Source: Ustilaginoidea virens (lineage: Eukaryota > Ascomycota > Sordariomycetes > Hypocreales > Clavicipitaceae). From it: a DNA stretch of 64,000 bases. Position numbers and translations under genes: made by a program. The stretch's first letter is position 1. Each line of letters opens with the position of its first letter. This document shows, in pieces, positions 31,641 to 47,982 of the stretch. The notes below the pieces were generated by a model that searched no databases, had not been told where the DNA came from, and saw only the letters and a program-made list of their open reading frames with translations. The stretch covers positions 1,674,001-1,738,000 of the forward strand of contig NC_057321.1 in assembly GCF_000687475.1 (NCBI RefSeq). Reading direction: 5' to 3'.

Positions 31641-33996
31641 TACTGCAGACCCTTTTCGCGAATTAGTTAAATAGCTCTTAGGCCGCCCCCTAACCGGCCC
31701 CGGTTGTATAATAGAATGCCTCCCTCCCTATAGCTTAAGATACCTAGCTAAAACGTAAGCCGATCCTAATAAAGGACCCCTTTAATAGCAAAAAGGCTAT
31801 ATTTATAGCCTAGCGGACTTTTATACAATATAAGCTTAAGGTCGATAAGGACTTTATTAAAGACGAGAAGACCTAATAGATATTTATCTTTTAGAACCTT
31901 TCGTTTATAATCTAATTATAAATTACAGCTTTCTTTAAGAATAATATAGCTTACAATTATAATATAATAAAGTTCTTTGAATACCTCTAATATCTCTTTA
32001 AGGACTTATACTAATAGGATCGCGCTATTACTAAGCTTAAGCACTCTTTATATTAAGGCCCTAAGGAACCTTTTACCGCCTTCTTTATACAATTTAAGGA
32101 AAAACTTATACTTACTAGCGGTCTTAATTAGCCTAAAGAAGTTAAGCTTAAATACCTCCGATCGGCGCTTAATACTTATATAGCTAATAAGATTATTAGC
32201 CTTAGGGTCTCCTATTACGACTACTATTTAGCAGTAGATCGTTATCGATAAATTGCTATCGATATTAAGATTAGCTTAACTATTAATTACTATATGGATT
32301 CGATCTATTCCCGACTGATATATGCCTAGGATTCTAAAGGCGATATATAAATATCGGGTATTAATAAGCTAGACTTAAAAGGTAATTAGTATACGCCTAA
32401 AGCGATATAGGTCTCTAAAGAATATCATAAAGATTATAGGAAAAAAAGCCTTTATTTTTAATATAGCTCTCCTAATTATTAGATATTTATATACTACCTA
32501 CTGCCGGTAATCCGACCTAATAGAACTAAAGTAGCTTTGCTTAATTTATAAATTATAAAGGTTGAAAATAGTAATAAAGATTAGGAAAAAGAATAGCTTT
32601 TAAATTTAATTTTATTAGAGGGCTTTAGATACGCATATAGACCCTAGCTTAATTATAAAAGGAATTAAAAGAGATTATAGAACGAATAAATAGACACCCC
32701 TTTTTAGTATTAATCTTATATAAATCCTATACCTTTATTAATACCTTAATCGACTTAAGATATAACTATTATAGCGCTATAAGCAAAAAGATAGTATAAT
32801 AGTTAGGCCTCTAACCTATCTGCCTACTATAACGCAGGGAAATTAGAATAGTAGTAGATATTTAGAGCTATTTAGGAGAATATAAAGTAATACGTTCCTC
32901 TATTACCTATATCATCTATATAGCAATCGATATCGATAGATAGCTATCTATAGTTATACTTTATATTATCCTAGGCTTTACCTACAATATTATCCTTAGG
33001 ATGCCTTAGATAAAGCACTATAATATTATACTATAAGTAAAGCGGTGCTAATTAAAGATTAGATTGGCAGATAGTTTTATTATTAAGGAATTAATAAAAA
33101 AGCAATAGGGTCTAATTATAATAAATATCCTTAGCTCGGTCTTCTATAGTATATTAAAATAGGCAAAACGCTCTAGGGATTAATCGACTTCTTTTATTGC
33201 GATAAGCTTATAGGAGATAATATATATCCTCTATATTATATTACCACCTTATTAAAATTCTACCCTATAATTATAAGAGCTATAAGTGCTCTCGATAGAA
33301 TTATAAGAATTTATCGACCTTTTTAATAAGGAGAAGGCTTCTAGTCTCTCTTTATACTAAGGTATATTAGACCACTATATCTAGCTTAAAAAGACTATAG
33401 ATAGGAGCTAGCTAGACCTACTTTAAAGCCTATTATATAATATACTATAAGACTAATTATTTAAGGTTCGGAGATAAGTAATTAACTTAATAAATAAAGG
33501 ATAGATTTAAATAAGCTCCTTATCGGCAGTAGTATTAGTTTTATTAGCTAGAAAGGGGAATAATAGGTAGCATTTTTATATCGACTACCGGGCCCTTAAT
33601 AAGGTTATAGTCTAAGACTAATACCCCCTCCCCTTAATTAAAGAGACCTTACGATCTTTATCTTAGGCGAAATAGTTTACTAAGGTTGATATATATATAG
33701 CATTCTATAAGATATATATTGCAGAGGGCGATAAATATTTAACTATATTCTATATACAATTTAGACTATTTAAATGGCTTATTATGCTATTTGGCCTAAT
33801 TAGGGCCCCTACGACCTTTTAAAGATATATTAATAGGGCTTTAGGGAATACACTAAGAGACTTTATAATTACCTACCTCAATAATATTTTAATCTATATT
33901 AGGGGATTAAAAGCGGACTATATAGAGCGTATTAAGGAAGTCCTTTAATAACTATAAAAAGCCAGCTTAAATTTAAATCTTAATAAATACGACTTT
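31640..33996 (+). pseudogene. Chromovirus G2 gag-pol remnant (Gag, protease, RT)
   Basis: Gag about 31750-32250, aspartic protease near 32735-32800 (NTLIDLRYNYYSAIS), RT about 33440-33996. RT landmarks: FYIDYRALNKV, YPLPLIKETL, FTKVDIYIAFYKI-like strand, and TYLNNILIY at about 33862-33900 in which the YxDD aspartates are both Asn. Many TAA/TAG codons. The frame is cut after the RT palm, at LNLNLNKYDFIV, by the copia-A insertion. Confidence 0.8.
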
Positions 33997-34001
33997 ATAG
34001 T

Positions 34002-34025
34002 TATTGCAAAATGGTGATTCAGAAC
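34002..34025 (-). repeat. LTR-A terminal fragment (A4 3' LTR, left piece)
   Basis: 24 nt, TATTGCAAAATGGTGATTC then AGAAC, the outer end of the A4 3' LTR (TG mutated to TA). The last five bases are the TSD of the copia-B that interrupts it; the LTR resumes at 47983. Confidence 0.93.
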
Positions 34026-34785
34026 TATTGCAATTCTCAAGGTCACTATAAAGCAAAGCCTTACTAGCTAGCTAAATGGCACAAGACTGTCTGCGACCTG
34101 TGACTTAATCTTAGTATAAATACTAGATTCTTCACTAAGTCCTAAGACTATACAAGTGCTATAAAGCGAGGCAAGTGTAAAGGCAAGGCAAATATAAGAT
34201 AACCAGAATAACGCAGGGAAGGTGGAAGTTAAGAGGCATGTAGTGCATTAACAGGTTCGATTGTGCTACCCTTCTACTATCTAGAAAGAAGGGGGAAAGC
34301 TATCCTATATATACACGAAGGAGGGGTGGGCCCAGGCATCCAGGGAAGCCAGTAAGAAAGCTCCCCGTAATGCTCGCTATGCCACGTATATAATACGTCA
34401 GCAGCCCCACTATATCCAGCCTTTCTAACCACCCTAACCACCGCACTAGTAACTAGTCACCACGCTAATGACTAACCACCACACTAGTGGACTAGCCACC
34501 ACGCTAGTAGGCCACCACGCTAATTTAGCAATGCCATACCACGCTAGTAGGCCGCCACCACGCTAGTAGGCAACCACGCTAATTTAGCAATGCCACACCT
34601 TTTTTAATAAGGCCTACCTTACTTGATATATAGTAAATAATCTACTGAAAATCCTAAGGTAAAAGGCAAAGGCCTAAGGTTGGTAAGACTACCGTAAGTC
34701 CAAGAGGCGGTATAAGGGCCAGAAGGTTAGTAGGCCAGTAGGGCATAAGGCCAGCAGCCTAGTAGGCTACTATAGGATTTTAATA
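34026..34785 (-). repeat. LTR-B, 3' LTR of inner copia-B
   Basis: 760 bp. Element strand start TATTAAAATCC (TG mutated to TA), end TTGCAATA. Contains the CCACGCTAGTAGG tandem array at about 34435-34600. Confidence 0.93.
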
Positions 34786-34793
34786 CCCCCTCT
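34786..34793 (-). other. Polypurine tract (copia-B)
   Basis: AGAGGGGG on the element strand before the 3' LTR, within TAATCAGAGGGGG, the same context as copia-A although the LTRs are unrelated. Confidence 0.75.
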
Positions 34794-34906
34794 GATTAGC
34801 TACTGTAGTAGCAAGCTAATCGTATAAAGGATAGGGAAAGAAAATGCAGTAAAAAGTGCTAAGGAAAAACATAAGAAAAACCTTAGTAAAAGTAAGTTAG
34901 TATAAG

Positions 34907-37900
34907 TTAGTAGGCCTTAAGACCTAGTAACTCGCGGAACCTAGTAAATTTAGGGCCCGGCAGTGGCTTCGTAAGACCGTCAGCAGGCATACTATTAGTA
35001 GGTAAATAGGTAATTTTAACCAAGCCCAGCTGGGCTTGCTCCCTAATATACCGGAATTTTAATAGCGTATGCTTAGTGCGAGCGTGCTGATTAGGGTCGT
35101 TAGAATTTGAAATGGAGCCCTGGTTATCGCAGTATAGCGGTATAGGGCGTAAAATATCAATTTCTAGCTCCTTACAAAGGTTAGAAAGCCACTGTACCTC
35201 GCGGATAGTCTCAAGTAATGCATCAGATTCAGCTTCTAAAGTAGATAGCACTACTAAAGAGGCTCGCTTAGAACGCCAGCTAATAGGACCACTATTAATA
35301 GTAGTCAGGAAGCCTCCAGTAGATTTAGAGGTTTCTTTACAGCCAGCAAAGTCGCTATCAGAATAAGCGGCTATAATAGGCTATTGGTTGCTTTTAGTAG
35401 CACTAAAGCAAATAGCTAGGTTCTCAGTGCCTTTAAGGTAACTAAAGCTGCCTTTTGCAGCATTTAGATGCACATTAGTTGCTTTCGATATAAACCGAGA
35501 AAGGTATTGGATAGGAAATGCTAGGTCGGGCCTAGTCATCATCATAAGCCACATTATAGTGCCAGTAAGGCTCTGATAAAGGCTCTGATCAGTAGGGCTA
35601 AGATCTTTTCTACTAGATTCATTTAGAATCCCTGGTTGAAGTGGAATAAGCTGAGGTTTAGTATCCTGTAAGCCGAATTTAGCTAAGACCTCTGCTATAA
35701 ATTGGGCTTGGTGTAGCCACAATAGACCTTCTTTCCTATTTCGTATAATTTGTACGCCTAAGAAGAAGGAAGCCGGACCGCGGTCTTCTATAGTATAGAC
35801 CTTATAAAATTTTCTTTTTAGCTGGTTAATATAAGTTATATTTGGACCAACTAATAGGCAATCGTCAATATAGGTAACGATAAAGGTGCTGGTTTGCTTA
35901 TTATAAAAGACGGCAGTATTAGAGGCTAAAGGTAAAAAACCTTTACTGGAAATCAGGTCTTTTAGCCGGTGTTGCCATTCGCGGGGTGCTTGTTTTAGCC
36001 CGTATAGGGCCTTCTTTAGTAAAATAGCTTGCTTAATAGAGGGATTAAAGCCGGCTTCTTTAAGTAAAGTTAGTAGCCGTTGCCGTTGAATATCAGACCA
36101 AAGCTTGCTATCGCTATTAGTTAGTAGTAAGCTTTCTGTAAATTTAAGAAATCCATCAGGAATATCCATATAAATAGTCTTAGAAAGTTCGCTATTTAGG
36201 AAGGCACCTATAAAGTCAATTTGCTCTATTTCCTAGTTATTACTAGCAGCCAAAGCCAGTATAACCCTCCAGGTAGGTAGAATAGAGGTAGAAGCATAAG
36301 TATACTAAAAATCCTTTCCTTCGACTTGCATAAAGCCCTTAACAACTAATCTAGCCTTATATTTTATAGGCTGATTATTAGCATCCTTTTTAACCCGAAA
36401 AACAGGCCTATTACGTATAATTTTCCTATCAATAGGAACGCTAGACTTAGGAATAAATTGGAAGACTTTAGTATCCAATAGCTGCTCAAATTCCTTAAAT
36501 AATGCCTTTATCCAAAGGTCTTTTTCAGGGCTTCGTAGCACATCCTTCCAGCTATTAGGCGTACCATCGGGGGCCTTTTTAGCTAGCTTACGCTTAGCTG
36601 CATAGCAGGAATCCCATATCAGGTGGTGTAAGATATTACCTTCCTAAGGGAATAAGTCGGTAGGGCCAGTAGGGTCGGTAGGGCCAGCTAGGCCAGTAGG
36701 GCCAGTAAGGTCGGTAGGATTAGCAGGGCCAGCAGGGCCAGCAAGGTCGGTAGGATTAAGGCTAGTAAGGATATCTATAAGGTCATCCTTTGCAGTAGCC
36801 GGGGACTGTATTATAGGACGGTTATCCAAGATAGCATTAGTGTTAATAACGCTAGTATTAGTAGGGTCCGGCATGTTTTCCAGGTCATCCGGTATAGCAT
36901 TAGTATTAGTAATGCTAGTAAGGTTAGTAGAGTTAGTAGGGTCAGGAATGCTTTCTAGGTCATCCAGTAAAATAGCAGGTTCTCTGCTAAATACCCCCTC
37001 TAAACCTGTATTTTGCCCTCTATGAAAGTCTCCTTCTAGACCACTAGAAATAGGGCCTATACCTTCATTTTAGTAGATAAAGGTAATAAAAGTTGTTTTA
37101 GTAACAACCTTCTTCTTTAGAAGGTAGACTAGGTAAGTATTATTACCTAGAGTGGTAAGGAGCCTACCAGGCTCGGTACGGGGCGCTAATTTACGGCTTT
37201 TTACACGCTTTTCGTGTGGTATAAGCACTTCAATAGCTGCTCCAATAGCCCTAAGGTTAATAAGGTCAGGGTAGTGCTCCGGTGTTATCTGGTCGTAATC
37301 CTTTAGTAGCTCCTGATAGGGGCTAGAAGGTCTGTTAGTAACAGCTGTTATATTTACTAGCATAACAACGCCAGTAATTACAGCAGACCAGAGGTTAGAT
37401 GGTAGCCTTGACCAGGCCATAGTAGCACGTAGCCTATCAGCTATAACCCTAATAGACCGCTCAGCTAGGCCGTTTTATTCGTGAATATAAGGGCAAGATG
37501 TGTTAAAAGTTATGCCCTGTTCGACAAGCCAATCACTAAGCATTTTGTTGATTTCATTTCCACCATTATAGTGGAATTCAACAGGCGTTTTACCATATCT
37601 GACCTGTAGGCTCTGTATAAAGCTCTGTAATGCTTTAAATACAATAGTGCCTTCCCTATTAGGCAGTAAGTAAAGCCAGCGGAATCGGGATTTTCTGTCC
37701 ACTAATATAAGGGCAACAGGTCGTTTGTTATATGGCATAGGTGATATAGCAAAAGTATCACCTTCTATAATATCCAAGCATTTAGCTGGATTAGGTATCG
37801 CATCTTTAGAAGGTCTTCTAACCTTCTTAGCCTGTATACAGGCTAAACAGCGAAAATCAGCATCTTTAACCTTATTAAAGTTAGGCAGACCAGGGGTATT

Positions 37901-38559
37901 AGCACAGGTCTTTTTAAGCAGCTGAATACCTATATGCCCTAGCCGCACATGCCAAATGCCGGCTAATTGTAATAGCTTCTGATATTCTGTGTCAGCAGCT
38001 ATAGGGGCAGGAGTAGGGTTAGTAACCTCTACAGGGTCTTCGCTAGTCGTAATAGCGGAAGGTTGGGTAGTAGGGCTAGTAGCCTCTACAGGTTCCTTAC
38101 TAGTCGCAGTAGTAGGAACGGGGGTAATAGTGGTATCCTCAGGATTACTATAATCAGCAGGGTTAGTAGGGCTGGGGACCTCTACTACTATACTATTAGT
38201 ATAGTGGCTGCAAGGTTGATGCAGTAGTGGTGTGTCTATTCCTTTCTATGGAAGGAAAAAGCCGTATTTTTCGAAGTTAAAAATGCCGATGCATTTACGG
38301 CTTGCTGACCAAAGCTGATTTTTAATTAGTACCCCTTTAGCGGCATAGTGCTTTACACCGCTAATGATATTAATATCCAAGGCAGGAATATATAGTGCAT
38401 TCTTGAGCTCTATAATACCCCATTTGGTAGGATTAACGCCCTATAGCACAGTAAATCGTGCTGTGCCCCAACCAGTAGGGGAAATAGGGCCACCACCAGT
38501 AGTAATTACAGGCTTATCATTTTTCTCAAAATGGTGAAAAGTAGTGAAATGCTTCTTAT
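34907..38559 (-). pseudogene. copia-B pol (protease C-terminal part to RNase H), 3' segment
   Basis: Continues the gag-pol frame from 47094 after copia-C; with the TSD counted once the total is 4968 bp, 1656 codons, no frameshift. Integrase: GHIGIQ, CLACIQAKK zinc site, VDRKSRFRWLYLL with the first Asp, HYNGGNE where the second catalytic Asp is Asn (37567-37565), GLAERSI. Linker is Gly/Pro/Thr-rich (GPTDLTGPTGLAGP repeats). RT has KKALYGLKQAPREWQ and TYIDDCLLVGPN near 35870. RNase H: AAYSDSDFAGC, EAESDALLE, LYCDNQGS. About eight stops, nearly all Gln-to-TAA/TAG. Ends LLGLKAY-TAA. Confidence 0.92.
36640..36770 (-). repeat. Short repeats in copia-B integrase-RT linker
   Basis: Plus strand units GGGCCAGTAGG / AAGGTCGGTAGG repeat about ten times and encode GPTDLTGP-type repeats in the pol frame. 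This is the variable linker, equivalent in position to the copia-A linker. Confidence 0.65.
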
Positions 38560-38902
38560 TGTCGGAATCGCTGTCGCAAGGTGCCCAATTGGGCACCAAT
38601 TGGGCACATTGCGACGAATGTGCCGCGCACACCCGTTGCGCACGATGTGGCCACTTTTGCCCCTTTACCCCTGAGCCCGGTAGGGCACGCGGGCAGCCCG
38701 GCCCGACTGCGCCGATGCACGTGACAACGGCACACGCACAAAAAGGCCATATCGTGTAATTACCCTCTTTTGCTTCCTTTCTTTCCTTTTAGATATTCAG
38801 TCATTAGTAAAGTCAATAAATCCTTTACTTGGTGACCTCACGGTACTTAATACCACGCGCGCGACCCTACGTATAACTGGGTACCCCGAGTTTATATCAA
38901 CA
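38560..38902 (+). repeat. LTR-C, 5' LTR
   Basis: 343 bp, TGTCGGAATCG...TTTATATCAACA. Near the start is a perfect palindrome GGTGCCCAATTGGGCACC (38580-38597), enclosed by the inverted heptamers GTCGCAA (38573-38579) and TTGCGAC (38609-38615). A pyrimidine-rich run precedes AGATATTCAGTC. LTR-C also contains ACCACGCGCGCGACC near its end. Confidence 0.95.
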
Positions 38903-39242
38903 CTGATTAGTGGTGATAACCACCACTCATAGGATAATATCCCGCAAAGAACGGTACATCACAGATCAGCAAGATATTAATATCGAAGAGGCAGTTGAGC
39001 TTTCTTAGCTGTGCTAACTAGAGGGAGAACGATTTGTGACCTCTCCTTCCCCTCGTCTATTACGAGGAAGAAACTTATGCTGAATATCACGATCTTTAAA
39101 GATACCCTTAGCATCTAGGAAGAACGATTTATGACCTCTTCCTATTCTTTCTTTCTTTTACCACTACGGTAAAAGCCCTTTCAAACCTTGCACTCCTTGC
39201 AATACATCCCCCCCCCCCCCTTCAAACCCTCATCTCAACACT
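38903..39242 (+). other. copia-C leader with C13 run
   Basis: Untranslated leader of 340 bp. An inverted repeat AGTGGTGATAACCACCACT lies just inside the LTR. An uninterrupted run of 13 C at 39208-39220 lies about 22 bases before the gag ATG. Two AACGATTTATGACCTCT-like repeats occur at about 39028 and 39122. No PBS was recognised. Confidence 0.5.
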
Positions 39243-42200
39243 ATGGCCTTATCATTATCAACATCATAACAACCACGAGAGCTACCTGAGAGGATACAAC
39301 GGTTTGCCTCACTCTTTGACGATAATTAGACCAACGCTATAGAGCCCGTCGACCCTGATAATGCTACGAATATACAGCTACACAACCGTATCGCGTTCCT
39401 TATAGATACTTATGAGGAAAACACCCACCTAAATAATGATCTCTGGGAACAATTCCGCGAGGATTATAGCGAGTGGAATGAAGCCCTATTCCGCCGTATT
39501 AACGCTCAGGTTTTACGGCAATTCCGCTCAATATTACGGGAATGCGGCGTATATATTGGAGTATCGGGTTCCCTAACAACACCAACCCTACTTGAATGCC
39601 TTCAACAATAACAGAATCCACAATGGCCTCAAGAGGAAGTAACCCGGCAACTTGCTCGCAGCGTATTCCTATCCCGGCTCAACCCTACCAGGGAAGCCTT
39701 ACTACCTATCGGTAATACCGAGCAAGAGATGCAAAGGCTTCAAAATACGCCCTCACACACACGCACAAGGCCCCCATCATCATCATCATCACGAGCCCCC
39801 ATAACAGTTGTGCGAATACCCTCACCAAGGCTCGCGTTATGGCTCTCACAAGCCCCATCAACGCCAAGGGAATTCGCAACACTAATGGCACGATCACAGT
39901 CACAATAACCTATCGTCCCCCCCTCTATATCGAAGAAGCATTATGCCCCTGCGCCTGCCCCTATTGAAGAAGAAGAAGATAGGGGCCGGTCCCAACAACC
40001 AAAAGGGAAGACGCCTATTTACAATAGGCCGCTATTCGAAACAGGGGAAAGCTCCCGCCATCAACAACAACATGCAACGGCCGATGGTTATAGCCCACAA
40101 GACCGACCCGATGAAATATATCGCTCTAGGGATTATACCCCTAGCAGGGCTAGCCGAGGCGGCTATCTCAATGCCCCTCGAGGTCATAGTATGCCCAATA
40201 GAGGTCGAGTTATAGGCCCCGATGATGTGCTTCCTTCAACAGAGGACCCTGATGATGATACCCTCCAAGCCAATGCCGCCCCTGATACCAGATATCACGA
40301 ATCGCGGTATCGCGGCCCATAGGCCCCAACGCCTCATCCTCATCCGATAATACCAAAAATAGGCACGGCACCTAGCCCTTCCCGCTAATATCGGCCTACT
40401 CAGGCCAATGAACGGACGGTTTTGATAGGAGTACCGATAAACCCGGACCGACCCGGGTTATGGGATAACCCAGCCAGAGATCCCGCCAGCCTACCGCAAG
40501 GCTACCGACAAGCCGTTCCAGAATACCCTCCGGAACAATAACACCACCAAGAAGATTATACCCGAACCGGGTTTGATGATGTGTCGAAGAAGATATCTGA
40601 CCTCTTGCGCAGCTATCGCACAGAGGATAGATATAGCGGCAAAATGGATGACTTTATTGTACCAAAAGTTATCTCTTTTAAGAGCAAGTGCCGCCTACTA
40701 GGATTACCCGATAATGCATTAGCCAGAGCCTTCTAAATTATGCTTATCGGCGATGCTGAGACCTTTTACTTTGATAATATTGAACGCATTCGTGATACCC
40801 TCACTTTTGACGATATGGTCCGCAAAGTCAAGAGCCATTTCGAAAATGAGAGCACGGAGCAATTCTATTTGCACCGTTGGAATAGAATAACGCTCCAATC
40901 AACTATCGCAAAACATCCCAACAAATCAAAGCTAGAATGCCTTAATATCCTATTGGAAGAACTTTAACGCCTATATCGTGGTCTTTTTCCCCCCTTTATA
41001 GCTGATATAGAGCCTCACCGATAAGTCCTTAACGCTATAAGGGATACCCCTGAGTGTAGCCAGGCGCTGTATCGACATGCCCCTACATTCGAAGGCCTCG
41101 CCGCTGACCTATGGCGATCCCTTTCTATCTACGAGTCGGTCCATATAAATCAACAGCATTATTTCCTTTAATAGCAATAACATCACGATACTGACGATAT
41201 TGATGACAATATGGCGCTATTCACAGACCGTAGATATGGTCAATCCAACGATCGGCACTAACGCCCTTAACGCCGATTCGGCCTACAGCAGCAGTATTAA
41301 CGGCAACAATAAAATCGCGCCTTTCTAGCCAGGCCCCGTCAAAGACGTTGCTTTGTTTGTAATAAATCAGGATGTTGGTTATCCAACCATACTGACAAAG
41401 AGCAATAAGAATTAAAGGCACGATGGCTGAAGAACCGTTCTAACTGTACCGCCCCCGATGATAAGAAATTCCGTATTTTCCTATAGGAATACGAAGGGAC
41501 TGCCGACCAAGCCCTTGAAGATGCCGATTTTGATGATATCGTTGAAGATGTTGAAGTCATGATGGCAGGGGATGCACAATGGGATGCAGAGAATGCTGTC
41601 ATACCATAAATTATAGCCACTTAATACTTCCTAGCCCCTATGCAAATAGAACTATTACCTTCTTCATCTATCGAAACGTTATAAGCCCTGTAGGATAAAT
41701 TATGCCGATATGCCTTCCTATAGATTGACCCCTTCCGAATGCCCTCACCCGAACGTAATTCTGCCTTTCTAGAAGAAGAACGTTATGGTGACCATACCTT
41801 CCGCGGAATCCTACCGGATACTGGCGCCTCCGGCCTATTAACAGCAGGCCTAGGTCAAGCAAAGGCCCTGATGCGATTGATAAAGACCCTGACTATCGAG
41901 ATAACTGATAAGAAGCATACGGTGAATTTCGGAGCAGGCTTTGCCACATCTTCTGGTATACTTAATATCCCAACGATATTTAGCAACATCCCCTTCCACG
42001 TTCTTGACAGCGGCACCCCCTTCTTATATTCTATCACGGATATGGATAGGATAGGCGTGAAGCTTGACAATCTTGATAACCTACTCATTTAAGGGGATAT
42101 CAAGGTCCCGATTATCAGGAAATAGGGATATCTATGGTGGACTCTTAATGCCACGGATACTGCAGCCTTCCATCTATCGTCATAGGAGATCCGTTAACTA

Positions 42201-45131
42201 TATCGTCGATTCGGGCACCCTTCCATCAATAGGCTTACTAAATTGCTTCAACGGGCTGGTTATGATAATATTGACCGCAATATCATCGAAAGTATCACCT
42301 ATATGTGCCATTAATACCAGATGAACGCAAAGGCACCCAGCCGATTCAAATTCACATTAAAGGATGACCGCCAATTTAACTACGAGATAATCGTAGATAT
42401 CCTTTACATTAATAATCGGCCGGTATTACACATTATAGATGCCGCGATAAGCTTCTAGGCAGCCAGATTCCTTGATCCACAAAGACAGAAGGCCTGAGAC
42501 GTTTGGAATGCCTTTAAAGAATGCTGGATTGATACTTACCTTGGCCCACCGGATTGGATAGTCCACGATGCCGGTCTAAATTTCGCTTCTGCTGAATTCC
42601 GTCATAATGCCCGGCTTCTATCTATTAATGTGGATGAAATTCCTGTAGAAGCCCACCACAGCATTAGTAAAGTCGAGAGATACCACGCCCTATTACGCAG
42701 AGCCTATACCATCGTCAATGAAGAAGTAGGCGACCTATTAATAAGGGAACAGAAACTACAGCTAGCTATTAAAGCCGTCAACGATTCTGCTAGGCCTAAC
42801 GGCCTAGTACCCACATTACTAGTCTTTGGAGCGTATCCCCGACTTACGGATGACTCACCTCCTAGCTTACCAGTATCATAACGCGCCTTAACGTTACGAA
42901 AGGCCACTGATGAAGCTAGGAAATGCCTCGCTAAGCGACAAGTTTACGATGCCCTCACCTAACGGAACGGCCCGGACACGTGGCCTATCCACCGACTACC
43001 CCTACAGTCCGATGTACGGGTATGGAGAGAAAAGGGTGGATGGCACGGGCCGTACCGGCTAATCAGCCTCGAAGGTGAGACCTATATCGTGCAGATGCCA
43101 TATGGCCCCGTTAAGTTCCGGTCAACGGTCGTCAAACCCTACAACCACGACCCCGATATAGACGATCCCGAAGATATCGTCTATGCCGAAGGCCCGGCCC
43201 GCCCCGGCAGGTTAGAAGTCAGGATACCGGCTGCACCCGCACCTCCAGCCGCGATGATACCTGCAGCCGAGACATTATCGACGATACCTGCAGTCGCGAC
43301 ATATCCATCGCCAGCCACTGGCCCTAATCAAGTCGGGCCAGCATCACCATCACCACCGCCAGCACGTGTAATATCCGATATCATGATCAATGAGGACCAA
43401 AAAGAGGCTTTCGTCAATGCTATCGCTTCCAATACCGTCATCGATGCCTCTTTCCTGACTGCAAAAGAGCAAGCCGACCTGCAGCTTGCTAGTCAATTAC
43501 ACCGGGAAGGGAAGATAATAACCCTAGGAGCCCCCTTCGAACAGTCTGACCATATAGAGGTAGAAGCGTTACAGGCCCGCGATGTATTCCGATTTATTAC
43601 CTATGATATCGGTAAACATGGAGCCCAACGTCTATTTAACTCACGTATGGTACGAGAGATTAAGGGCAAAGGCACGGATACGCCATATAAGAAGTTACGA
43701 CTCGTCATACAAGGTCACAGTGATGATGAAAAGCAATTGATATTGACTCAGTCCCCTACAATCCAACGGGCTAGTCAAAGGTTACTTATATCATTGGCCC
43801 CATTACTACAACGTTCTCACAACCTATTCCTTTAGATACGTGATATCACGCAGGCTTATGTGCAATCTTCCACTACCCTTAATAGATCGATTATCGCCAA
43901 GCTACCTAAGCAGATAGCACATCAATACCCCGATAATACCATCATGGAAGTGGTCAAGCCGCTGTACGGAATAGCTGAGGCAGGCACCCACTGGTGGGCG
44001 ACATACTTCCGGCACCATCGCGAGAAGTTGGGCATGACCACTTCAACCTATGACCCCTGTTTGCTGATATCCGGCGATACCAACCGTACTGACGTTCCTG
44101 ACCATACTGGTGATACCAGCGATACCACATGCTTCGGTATTGTAGGTATGCAGACTGATGATACCCTCGGCCTGAGTGACGATGCCTTCTTCCAACGGGA
44201 AGAATTGGAGCTTACTAAGGCAGGCTTCAACGCCAAGCCTAAAACGAAGCTATCACCAACCGTACCCCTGATATTCAACGGATGCATACTGACGGCCACT
44301 TCCGACGGCATAATGACGTTATGCCAGAAAGGCCAAAGCAAGAAGATCGCGACCATCGACAAGAATGCGCCCACAGCACAGCATAATTATGTCGAACAAC
44401 GCGCTCGCGGCGCTTACGTGGCTACGGTCTGCCAGCCCGAAGCATCTTTTGACCTATCTGTCGCAGCACAACACCAGCAACCTAACCCTGACGATATCAC
44501 GAGGTTGAATAAGCGCCTTCAATGGCAGCGCGATAACCAGGATCGTGGCTTACGGTACATCAATTTGGCCCTTACCACAGCTAAGATCTTTGTATTTGTT
44601 GACGGATCCTTTGCCAACAACAAAGATTTAAGCTCCCAGATTGGTTACGTCATTATGCTAGGGAATGAGGCAGATACTGCGAATAACGCCTTCCAGTTGA
44701 CTGGTAATATCATAACTTACAGCTCTACAAAGAGCAAGCGGGTAACGCGTAGCGCACTCGCTTCGGAGCTGTACAGTATGGTACAAGGGGTCGATATTGC
44801 ATACGCGATAGGCACGACCCTCAACATGATTACCAGCAGGCTAGGATTGCCGAAGATCCCCACGGTTGTGTGTACGGATTCGTTTTCATTGTACGAATGC
44901 CTTGTCAAACTAGGCACTACCAAGGAAAAGAGGCTCATGATAGATATCATGGCCCTACGATAGTCATACGAGCGCCGGGAGATATATGAGATCCGCTAGA
45001 TTAACGGGAACGATAATCTCGCCGACGCAATGACTAAGGGAACGCCTAACAAAGCCCTTGAGACCTTCGTTGACCACAACAAGGCTGTAATACGTGTGGA
45101 AGGGTGGGTAAAGAGGCCGGTCAATGTCTGA
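39243..45131 (+). pseudogene. copia-C Gag-Pol polyprotein with scattered stops
   Basis: ATG 39243 to TGA 45129-45131: 5889 bp, 1963 codons, all readable segments in one frame. Gag with zinc knuckle CFVCNKSGCWLSNH near codon 700; protease LPDTGASG near 859; integrase with FGHPSINRL, then C-H-stop-Y where CHxC is expected, D (IIVDILY, about 1051), D (VHDAGLNF, 1106) and E (EAHHSI, 1135); RT with RDITQAYVQS and GMQTDDTLGL (about 1634); RNase H with FVDGSFANN, ASELYSM and CTDSFSLYE. About 38 stops, almost all TAA/TAG at Gln-like positions, while about twenty Trp codons remain TGG. C-terminal DAMTKGTPNKAL. Confidence 0.92.
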
Positions 45132-45431
45132 CTACGTTTGGGAGATGTTGGTGATATCATGGGTGGCAAGTGTGTAGACTTTCCTATGTTCAATATTGTA
45201 TGCATTTGTTGCTTTTACTGCGTTTACTGCTGCCCCTTTTTACCCCTTTGTTTCGGCTGCGATATTCAACATACCGGCTGTACGGTATGATCCTATACAA
45301 GCCGGCCGCGCGGCGCGACAGCGTTATCGGCGGCACAACCTGCCGAGACCGCGCCGCACTTTCTTTTCTATATGTGCGCCTTACATCCTGGCGATTCCGA
45401 TGTTTGCTTCTATAAAAAGAGAAGCTGCCAG
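45132..45431 (+). other. copia-C 3' untranslated region and polypurine tract
   Basis: Between the Gag-Pol stop and the 3' LTR. Ends with AAAAAGAGAAGCTGCCAG before the LTR, a plausible but impure polypurine tract. Small open frames here are not supported as genes. Confidence 0.5.
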
Positions 45432-45774
45432 TATCGGAATCGCTGTCGCAAGGTGCCCAATTGGGCACCAATTGGGCACATTGCGACGAATGTGCCGCGC
45501 ACACCCGTTGCGCACGATGTGGCCACTTTTGCCCCTTTACCCCTGAGCCCGGTAGGGCACGCGGGCAGCCCGGCCCGACTGCGCCGATGCACGTGACAAC
45601 GGCACACGCACAAAAAGGCCATATCGTGTAATTACCCTCTTTTGCTTCCTTTCTTTCCTTTTAGATATTCAGTCATTAGTAAAGTCAATAAATCCTTTAC
45701 TTGGTGACCTCACGGTACTTGATACCACGCGCGCGACCCTACGTATAACTGGGTACCCCGAGTTTATATCAACA
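45432..45774 (+). repeat. LTR-C, 3' LTR
   Basis: 343 bp, identical in length to the 5' copy. Starts TATCGG instead of TGTCGG, and has CTTGATACC where the 5' LTR has CTTAATACC. I saw no other differences by eye. Both are TG/TA transitions. Confidence 0.95.
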
Positions 45775-47094
45775 CTTATCATTAACAATATGACAAGTGG
45801 AGCCTGTATCGTAAAGGAGGGCATCCTTCGGGGTCCTACCGCCTGATTTAGCACTATAGCTTATAGCTAAGGGCTGGTTATCAGTGGATATAGTGGAAGA
45901 AGAATAAGATATATTAGTATCCTGGGTATTATAGTTGCCTATAATAAAGGCCTCAACATCTTGCTGTTTGCTGCTATTGTTAGAGTCTTGTTTCTTCTTC
46001 TGTTGCTGCTTCTTTTTCCTATTATTAGTAGAATTATTCTTGCTATTATTAGTAGAAGCGGCATTAGTAGACCCTTTCTTAGGGTCCTTGAAAGCCTTAA
46101 GCTGCTTAGGGTTATTAGCAGCTACCTTAGAAGACCCTTTAGAACGCTGTTCTTCTAGTAGGTCAACCATAAAATACTGGAGGTTAAATTTGCTGCTGTT
46201 AATAACACCTTGGGCGCTATAAGCCCTAATCATAGAGCGTTGGCGTTCCGTCCAGCGGGTAAATACCCCCTCTACAGCCCAAAGATACTGGTTAACTTGG
46301 TCGAAAGAGTCGATTTTAGAACCTAGAATTCTAAGGCGAGAAATATAGCTGTTAAATTCGCTGTTAAAAGCCTCTAAAGTGCCTTTATAACCGGTAAGTG
46401 TAAGGGTGTGAAAGGTAGGGTATAAGTGTGCCCGCTGTACTTCTGGTGAGTGGCAGTACTGGGCCACTAGCAAAAGGTAGGCTTCCTCTGGGTCGTTACA
46501 CCACTCTATAGCCTCTGCAGCTTCTTCACCACAGCTATTCTTTAGCATTAGTAGTAGAAGTGCCTGCTCAGACTCATCAAAGTGCCTTGCTATAGAAGGG
46601 TCGTTAACAAAATTAGCTATTTTAAAGGCCCTAAGTTGTATAGTAAGGGCCTGCTTCCACTGGTCGAAATTATAGGGGCTTTTTAGCTTCTGTGACTCCT
46701 TAAAGCGGTTGGCAGTCTTAGCTAATTCTTTAATAGCCCCATCACTAATTTGGTTGGTGATAGTTGTTGTTGGTGCTGTTGTGGTGTAAATAGGCTCTTT
46801 ACCCTTATATTTTATAGGGGTAGAAGGTTGGTCGATTTCCATAACGTCAGCTTCACTATCATCATCTTTAGTAGTAGTCTTAGTGGAAGGTCCAGCGTTA
46901 GTAGCTTTAGTAGGCTTCTTATTAGTAGCCTGGGTAGCCTGGGTGTCGTTATTTTGCCTAGTAACTAAGCCCTGTATAAGGTCAGTTAGTATATTCATCT
47001 GAGATTTCATATCGTCCATATCTAGCTGTAGCTGTGCATTAGTATCAACTTCAGTATCGGATTCAGGGACCTTATAGGATCCTGATTCTGCCAT
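45775..47094 (-). pseudogene. copia-B Gag and protease, 5' segment of split gag-pol (reading frame intact)
   Basis: ATG at 47094 (MAESGSYKVPES); open upstream to 47103 and beyond with no better ATG. About 440 codons without a stop. Gag has a DUF-like helical core (FDQWKQALTIQLRAFKIANF, then VNQYLWAVEGVFTRWTERQ), then a Lys/Gln/Asn-rich tail (NRKKKQQQKKKQDSNN) and no CCHC zinc knuckle. Protease motif LLYDTGSTCHIVND at about codon 431. The frame is cut after VNDK by copia-C and resumes at 38554. This Gag could still be translated; the whole polyprotein could not. Confidence 0.92.
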
Positions 47095-47876
47095 AGTGGG
47101 CAAGAAGGGTTTAAAAATCCGTTGAAAAATGGTGCCGATAGTTGTAATAACAGAGGAATAATTAGCAGAGGAATAACTAGCTAAATAGCTAGCAAAATAG
47201 TCGAGTAACTGGTAAAATAGCTAGTAAAAATAGTCGAATAACTAGTCGGATTGCCAGTATATATAGTGACTAGTAGCCTACTATAAAAAGTAACCGCAGA
47301 ATATAGCGGCAGGTCTCAATATAAAAAAGCACGGATGCCGTAGGCGTTGTGCAAGTCCGTATTATAGCGTTGGTATTCAAGGTGCTTATATGGTGCCGTA
47401 ATATAAAGGTGCCGTAAGTGCCGTAGGTGCCGTAGGTGCCGTAGGTGCTATAGGTGCCGTAATATAAAAGGTGCCGTAAATGCCGTACCAAAAGTGCTAT
47501 AAGTGGAAGAGTATAACAGGTGCCGTACAGTGCAGTAGGTGTCGTACACTAAGTGCAAAGGTGTTATACAGTGGTATAGTATGGTAGATATCACACTATA
47601 AAATCCGTAGGTGCCGTAGGTTACGCCGAAAATAACGTAAGGTTACGCTAAAAGTGCCGTAAGGTTACGCCGTAAGTTGCCGTTAGGTACGCCGTTGATT
47701 GCCGCAGGGTAATACCGTAGGTAATAAGGGTAAGCCAAAGGTAATAATAGGTAAGCCGAAGTTAATAAGGGTAAGCCGAAGATACCAAAGGATAGCTATA
47801 TTAGTAGTACTAATAAGCAAAAGAGACCAAGGGGTGAACACAAAAAGGTAGGGTAAAAACAAAGAAGTAAAAACCC
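47095..47876 (-). repeat. copia-B leader with tandem GTGCCGTAG units (inner copy)
   Basis: Leader of about 780 bp. GTGCCGTAG units run at about 47395-47465, with GGTTACGCCGTAAG and GGTAAGCC units at 47620-47790. The array at 47395-47465 has more units than the copy at 13228-13310. Function unknown; it may be a packaging or dimerisation region (inference). Confidence 0.65.
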
Positions 47877-47888
47877 GGGCTCATAACC
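47877..47888 (-). other. Primer-binding site, half-tRNA iMet type (inner copia-B)
   Basis: Plus strand GGGCTCATAACC, preceded by CCC, directly beside the palindromic LTR remnant. Confidence 0.75.
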
Positions 47889-47977
47889 TATTGCAATTCT
47901 CAAGGTCACTATAAAGCAAAGCCTATCTAGCTAGCTAGTAAGGCTCTGCTTTTATAGTGACCTTGAGAATTGCAATA
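47889..47977. repeat. Palindromic U5-U5 end replacing the copia-B 5' LTR
   Basis: 89 bp. The first about 36 bases are the U5 end of LTR-B in the expected orientation (TATTGCAATTCTCAAGGTC...), joined through CTATCTAGCTAGCTAGTAAGG to the same U5 end inverted (...GACCTTGAGAATTGCAATA). The outer end therefore is a U5 terminus where a U3 terminus is expected, yet it abuts the TSD AGAAC. The rest of the 5' LTR, including all of U3, is missing. Confidence 0.93.
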
Positions 47978-47982
47978 AGAAC

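Follow-up and report, generated by a model that had tools for sequence, protein, structure and literature searches.

How can an LTR retrotransposon that lacks a normal LTR at one end still be flanked by a correct target duplication (TSD)? This question is raised by copia-B, a minus-strand copia element at 34026-47977 of the window, that is, of the whole stretch of DNA analysed (64,000 nucleotides, C6:1674001-1738000), which belongs to a genome of 37.16 Mb in 8 contigs. On the 5' side of the element, the PBS (last base 47888) is separated from the TSD by just 89 bp (47889-47977). Unlike six other copies of the family, in which two direct LTRs are present, copia-B has one LTR and a U5-U5 end. 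The features of the element and of its target are listed below; V1 and V2 denote two U5 variants described further on.

34002..34025, plus strand: start of LTR-C, an older LTR of another family and the target of the insertion, which resumes at 47978.
34021..34025, plus strand: left TSD AGAAC, present as a single AGAAC in the empty sites.
34026..34785, minus strand: complete copia-B 3' LTR (760 bp) with a V1-type U5 and its U5 tip at 34026.
34907..35380, minus strand: RNase-H-like part of pol, an open frame, putative by position, no Pfam match.
35381..36232, minus strand: copia-type reverse transcriptase (RVT_2; Pfam PF07727, E 1.5e-27).
37475..38245, minus strand: gag_pre-integrs (PF13976, E 1.6e-06, 28.2 bits against a cut-off of 28.4) and integrase core (PF00665, E 3.2e-06, 27.8 bits against a cut-off of 32.6), both under the Pfam curated cut-off.
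38560..45774, no strand: nested LTR element inside copia-B with its own TSD CTTAT, not involved in the event.
45769..47220, minus strand: gag-like stop-to-stop frame, putative by position, no Pfam match.
47875..47888, minus strand: PBS, a 14-nt match to the end of the 39-nt tRNA-Met 5' half.
47978..47982, plus strand: right TSD AGAAC, present as a single AGAAC in the empty sites.

In the pol region the integrase (37475-38245) lies upstream of the reverse transcriptase (35381-36232) on the minus strand. Genes for tRNA-Met, which we take to be of the initiator type, were found by ARAGORN at both loci scanned in the same genome (L057 and L058). The family is large, with 739 U5 tips and 432 PBS-U5 junctions in the genome (up to 3 mismatches allowed in each case), and the copia-B 3' LTR has at least 50 genome matches among those listed, 40 of 807 candidates having been scored. 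Read in the element sense, the family LTR is TGTTAAAATCC...GAATTGCAATA with the PBS directly after it, and its normal length is 748-802 bp, as deduced from six LTR pairs. All six normal pairs are flanked by a matching 5-bp TSD, and their target-facing tips are TATTGC at the U5 side in six of six, and TAACA (five pairs) or TAATA (one pair) at the U3 side. The LTR ends of this family are TGTTA...CAATA, for example at 34026, and not TG...CA; the TSDs of the six checked pairs are still clean. As for the nested element at 38560-45774, a 300-nt stretch of both its LTRs is approximately 100% identical (a rounded value, at least one base being different), so that this element appears to be recent.

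The 89-bp segment was compared letter for letter with the family U5 sequences, and it is composed of 36 nt (arm 1) and the reverse complement of 53 nt (arm 2), with no base left over.

47889..47924, minus strand: arm 1, the first 36 nt of a V1 U5, adjoining the PBS.
47925..47977, plus strand: arm 2, the inverted 53 nt of a V2 U5/R, ending exactly at the U5 tip.
47927..47938, no strand: the CTAGCTAGCTAG palindrome, the meeting point of the two arms in register.

Neither U3 nor any part of the LTR farther than 53 nt from the tip is present on the 5' side of copia-B. Each arm matches U5 exactly right out to the LTR tip, so that the inverted arrangement far exceeds what chance would produce. The initial annotation had described an 89-bp U5-U5 palindrome with a correct TSD, and this description was confirmed, given that 47889-47977 follows the PBS and is itself followed by the same AGAAC that is found at 34021-34025. 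Its statement that the 5' LTR is replaced by 36 nt of U5 and then by inverted U5 also stands, but the second part is not the "same" U5, as the arms are two variants.

The insertion lies 24 bp inside LTR-C, and its empty counterparts could be inspected on both flanks. For the right flank, 11 other LTR-C copies were fetched (L046-L056, out of 39 other scored matches), and every one carries a single AGAAC and lacks the insertion; they read GTTGCAAAATGGTGATTC followed directly by AGAACAC, with one substitution in L049. For the left flank, only one of the 11 other copies fetched, L034, reaches the site, again with a single AGAAC and no insertion, and the remaining ones (L035-L044) stop matching at 33995-34001, 24-30 bases short of the site. 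It should be mentioned that L034 (C5:4170086) carries the left flank and the same LTR-C junction at 89% identity without copia-B, and that it could stem either from a segmental duplication or from an older insertion that both places share. Because AGAAC flanks the element on both sides and the empty sites are uninterrupted, it appears that a U5 tip was linked to the target on either side of the element, in the manner of an integrase. This agrees with the earlier proposal that integrase used a U5 terminus at each end of the DNA, since a U5 tip with a matching AGAAC is found on each side and the target is uninterrupted in the empty sites. The earlier argument that an intact TSD opposes a flank deletion after insertion is likewise upheld, with AGAAC on both sides and a single AGAAC in the empty sites. 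With high confidence, copia-B can be regarded as a single aberrant copia insertion of a cDNA that would have carried a U5 terminus at each end (U5/U5 insertion).

Arm 1 has the U5 form CTATAAAGCAAAGCC (V1), as does copia-B's own 3' LTR, and arm 2 has the form CTATAAAAGCAGAGCC (V2). Two differences separate the arms, an inserted A and an A-to-G change, and in comparison with the element's own LTR arm 2 shows a third difference, G for A after the palindrome. All three sites are polymorphic in the family, the G at the third site being present in 40 of 40 V2 loci and in 32 of 40 V1 loci. Exact copies of the V2 core (35 nt) occur at 399 places in the genome, arm 2 included, and those of the V1 core (31 nt) at 109. 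Among 30 LTR loci selected for their likeness to the copia-B LTR, V2 is seen in 17 and V1 in 10, one more locus has V1 with a single additional change, and two are intermediate in form; because of these two intermediates, V1 and V2 cannot be seen as two sealed classes. The whole of arm 1 is found exactly in three of the 30 loci (copia-B's own LTR and the two LTRs of one pair), and the whole of arm 2 in seven. The own 3' LTR is V1 like arm 1, which agrees with the standard scheme of reverse transcription.

Positions 24, 31 and 79-80 from the U5 tip carry variants in several combinations (L059-L138, L004 and L010). The neighbouring states were recorded at 80 loci (L059-L138), namely 40 of the 109 V1 and 40 of the 399 V2 places, picked among the first 100 listed of each, the V1 loci coming from C1-C3 and the V2 loci all from C1. 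The haplotypes were V1+CT (26 loci), V1+AC (14) and V2+AC (40). The fourth haplotype, V2+CT, was found in none of the 40 V2 loci and is known from L004 and L010, which form one LTR pair. This distribution suggests that V1 and V2 lineages have exchanged sequence near R; a four-gamete argument lends weak support to such recombination, and recurrent mutation could also yield mixed haplotypes.

The two arms turn at the CTAGCTAGCTAG palindrome. The distances from tip to centre are 44 and 45 nt, the same as in a V1 and a V2 LTR, respectively, and the arms can thus be considered as joined in register, with pairing of both palindromes. Within the first 750 nt of each of five LTRs scanned, this is the sole palindrome of at least 10 nt. 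It is 10 nt long in copia-B's own LTR (TAGCTAGCTA, with one end mutated) and 12 nt long in the other four, and 27 of the 30 LTR loci have the 12-nt form. When DNA duplexes between the two U5 minus strands are predicted, the most favourable one is formed by this palindrome (-13.0 kcal/mol). We rejected the pairing energy as a proof of annealing, because 72 of 1000 shuffles of the 53-mer gave self-duplexes of equal stability. On the arm 1 side the palindrome is bordered by AT instead of the TA of V1, and AT are the bases that come after the palindrome in V2.

The 5' end of minus-strand DNA is set by the tRNA primer and corresponds to the U5 tip, and one full-length RNA carries one U5. As the arms are two different U5 variants, a second molecule is required, and because a single full-length RNA has a single U5, the V2 sequence must come from a second RNA. 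In the normal cycle only minus-strand DNA can template arm 2, since both its sense and its exact start fit. With moderate confidence, we infer that the second U5 end was obtained during reverse transcription. The event would have taken place late in this process, with minus-strand synthesis already beyond the PBS and proceeding through the V1 U5 of the 5' LTR. The 3' end of this strand, lying within the palindrome, would have annealed to the matching palindrome in the 3'-terminal part of a strong-stop DNA, the partner being minus-strand DNA made from a second, V2-type RNA, for which a co-packaged RNA would be the simplest source. Each paired 3' end would then have been extended on the other. 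Copying of the V2 strong-stop DNA up to its tRNA-defined end would create the exact second U5 terminus, because this DNA starts at its own tRNA primer, and integrase would insert the two U5 ends into the target by an ordinary concerted reaction.

The AT beside the palindrome could be explained if the V2 DNA ended in ...CTAGAT-3' and was extended from two mismatched bases. We conjecture that the RNA starts where the strong-stop DNA would end, at this AT, at a distance of 53 nt from the U5 tip; the putative start is located approximately 45 nt downstream of a TATTTATA motif, a distance that is only suggestive. Two points speak against this proposal: the model in register needs the extension of an end with two mismatched bases, and, for the reverse-transcription route as a whole, the palindrome of the element's own LTR is shortened to 10 nt and a single case is known. 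We also consider it possible, albeit doubtful, that CTAGCTAGCTAG is the RNA dimer site of the family, which would hold the 5' ends of co-packaged RNAs together and occasionally let their strong-stop DNAs cross-prime. If so, the insertion would be a fossil of heterozygous packaging, and it would reveal the precise 3' terminus of strong-stop DNA, equivalent to the RNA start, as well as the in vivo use of U5/U5 ends by a copia integrase.

The main competing explanation, which we regard as rather unlikely but as a serious rival, is that two finished cDNAs, one V1 and one V2, met in the nucleus, where integrase paired their U5 ends or host repair joined them inside U5. In the repair variant the joining would occur by short-homology annealing at the palindrome, so the U5/U5 integration would be unchanged and only the joining would not be the work of reverse transcriptase. 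Two molecules are needed, the palindrome offers approximately 12 nt of homology between the inverted U5s, and in so large a family several simultaneous cDNAs are plausible. However, a clean annealing would leave TA before the palindrome, where AT is observed, and both cDNAs would have had to lose much of their length, with end points that correspond in position close to the palindrome.

Fold-back self-priming of strong-stop DNA had been put forward in the initial annotation. It is known that HIV strong-stop DNA can self-prime in vitro, and in copia-B the palindrome does sit at the turn. Nevertheless, such priming predicts arms of the same sequence, whereas one arm is V1 and the other V2: two sites distinguish them and a third separates arm 2 from the own LTR, with arm 2 in the V2 state at all three. 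A self-copied arm would require three later changes, each of them landing on the V2 state, and a conversion of one arm to V2 would have to affect a single 53-nt arm and end there. An intramolecular fold-back of the element's own minus strand, followed by such a conversion, is therefore improbable.

A rearrangement after a normal insertion (by inversion, by conversion or through a second LTR inserted in inverse orientation) could be imagined in a region so dense in nested repeats, and we give it a marginally lower probability than the fold-back. An inverted tip placed exactly against a matching TSD would be unexpected under it, as 5 bp would match by chance roughly once in 1000 cases if all bases were equally frequent, and the empty sites show an uninterrupted target. 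An assembly or sequencing fold-back artefact is very improbable, as it would give identical arms running on into the PBS and gag, whereas these arms are two variants and the inverted repeat extends no further than the U5 tip, where the TSD follows. Autointegration, in which a U5 end would have attacked the cDNA before insertion, had also been suggested and is a known retroviral side reaction, with a role ascribed to it in palindromic HIV-1 circle junctions (PMC3766001), but it is the least credible of all, since the attacking tip is expected at the inner junction and here both tips are outside (at the PBS and at the TSD), with internal U5 joined to internal U5/R 36 and 53 nt inside the LTR.

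The genome was searched for further U5-U5 palindromes using exact cores. Only the copia-B site was obtained with 16-nt cores and loops of 10-40, and with 12-nt cores, CTAG inside and loops of 4-64; 12-nt cores with loops of 60-90 gave none, nor did a search for head-to-head U3-U3 tips with 13-nt cores and loops of 0-30. Sibling insertions with identical arms were also absent under the exact-core U5-U5 patterns. In a family with approximately 430 PBS-U5 junctions, these patterns gave one such case, and "one case" applies to exact cores, to loops of up to 90 and to these junction types. A pair of facing U5 tips 97 bp apart (C2:180073-180219) is probably not a second case; because a PBS lies between the U5 ends, it was taken as one element nested in another.

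As a natural record, copia-B points to an LTR-retrotransposon integrase that took two U5 ends and finished a normal integration. As the integrase accepted two U5 ends, a U3 end would not be strictly required, and as the arms are two variants, the insertion would record contact between cDNAs of two parent RNAs. The insertion also points to a specific palindrome and to a specific RNA start, both of them testable. An annotation procedure demanding two LTRs would overlook U5-U5 ends of this kind.

No report of a natural LTR element with U5-U5 ends was found in the open-access literature searched, and several known systems can be compared with copia-B. Ty1/copia elements can be primed by a half initiator tRNA-Met, as in Drosophila copia. 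Like these, copia-B has an RVT_2 pol, a PBS matching the tRNA-Met 5' half and a 5-bp TSD; it is unlike them in its family tips, TGTTA...CAATA, and in lacking U3 and most of the LTR on its 5' side. Retroviral integrases perform U5/U5 concerted integration on synthetic ends, and copia-B, with a U5 tip and a matching TSD on both sides, similarly appears to have used two ends of the same type in one concerted reaction, but it is a natural genomic record with a TSD and not a test-tube donor. With self-primed cDNA it shares the appearance of turn-back copying from a self-complementary cDNA end; self-primed fold-backs have identical arms, whereas those of copia-B are V1 and V2, come from two molecules and were integrated. 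The palindromic circle junctions of HIV-1, as we understand them, join LTR tips and not inner U5, and the LTR tip that autointegration would place at the inner junction is found at the outer ends in copia-B. Imperfect palindromic junctions of HIV-1 2-LTR circles have been ascribed to auto-integration, to which PMC3766001 itself finds them not directly related. For HIV-1, it has also been argued that the second strand transfer is at times intermolecular (PMC5651808). The fungal copia element GalEa is described in PMC5445492 as having a palindromic hairpin in place of a PBS; unlike GalEa, copia-B has both a palindrome and a PBS. Finally, self-complementary palindromes near the Ty1 RNA 5' end (PAL1 and PAL2) have been put forward as pairing sites for dimers (PMC5454406). 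Like PAL1/PAL2 and the retroviral DIS, the copia-B palindrome is self-complementary and close to the presumed RNA 5' end, but unlike the RNA dimers of those systems its trace is in DNA, as the junction of two cDNAs, and CUAGCUAGCUAG is only a putative RNA dimerization site.
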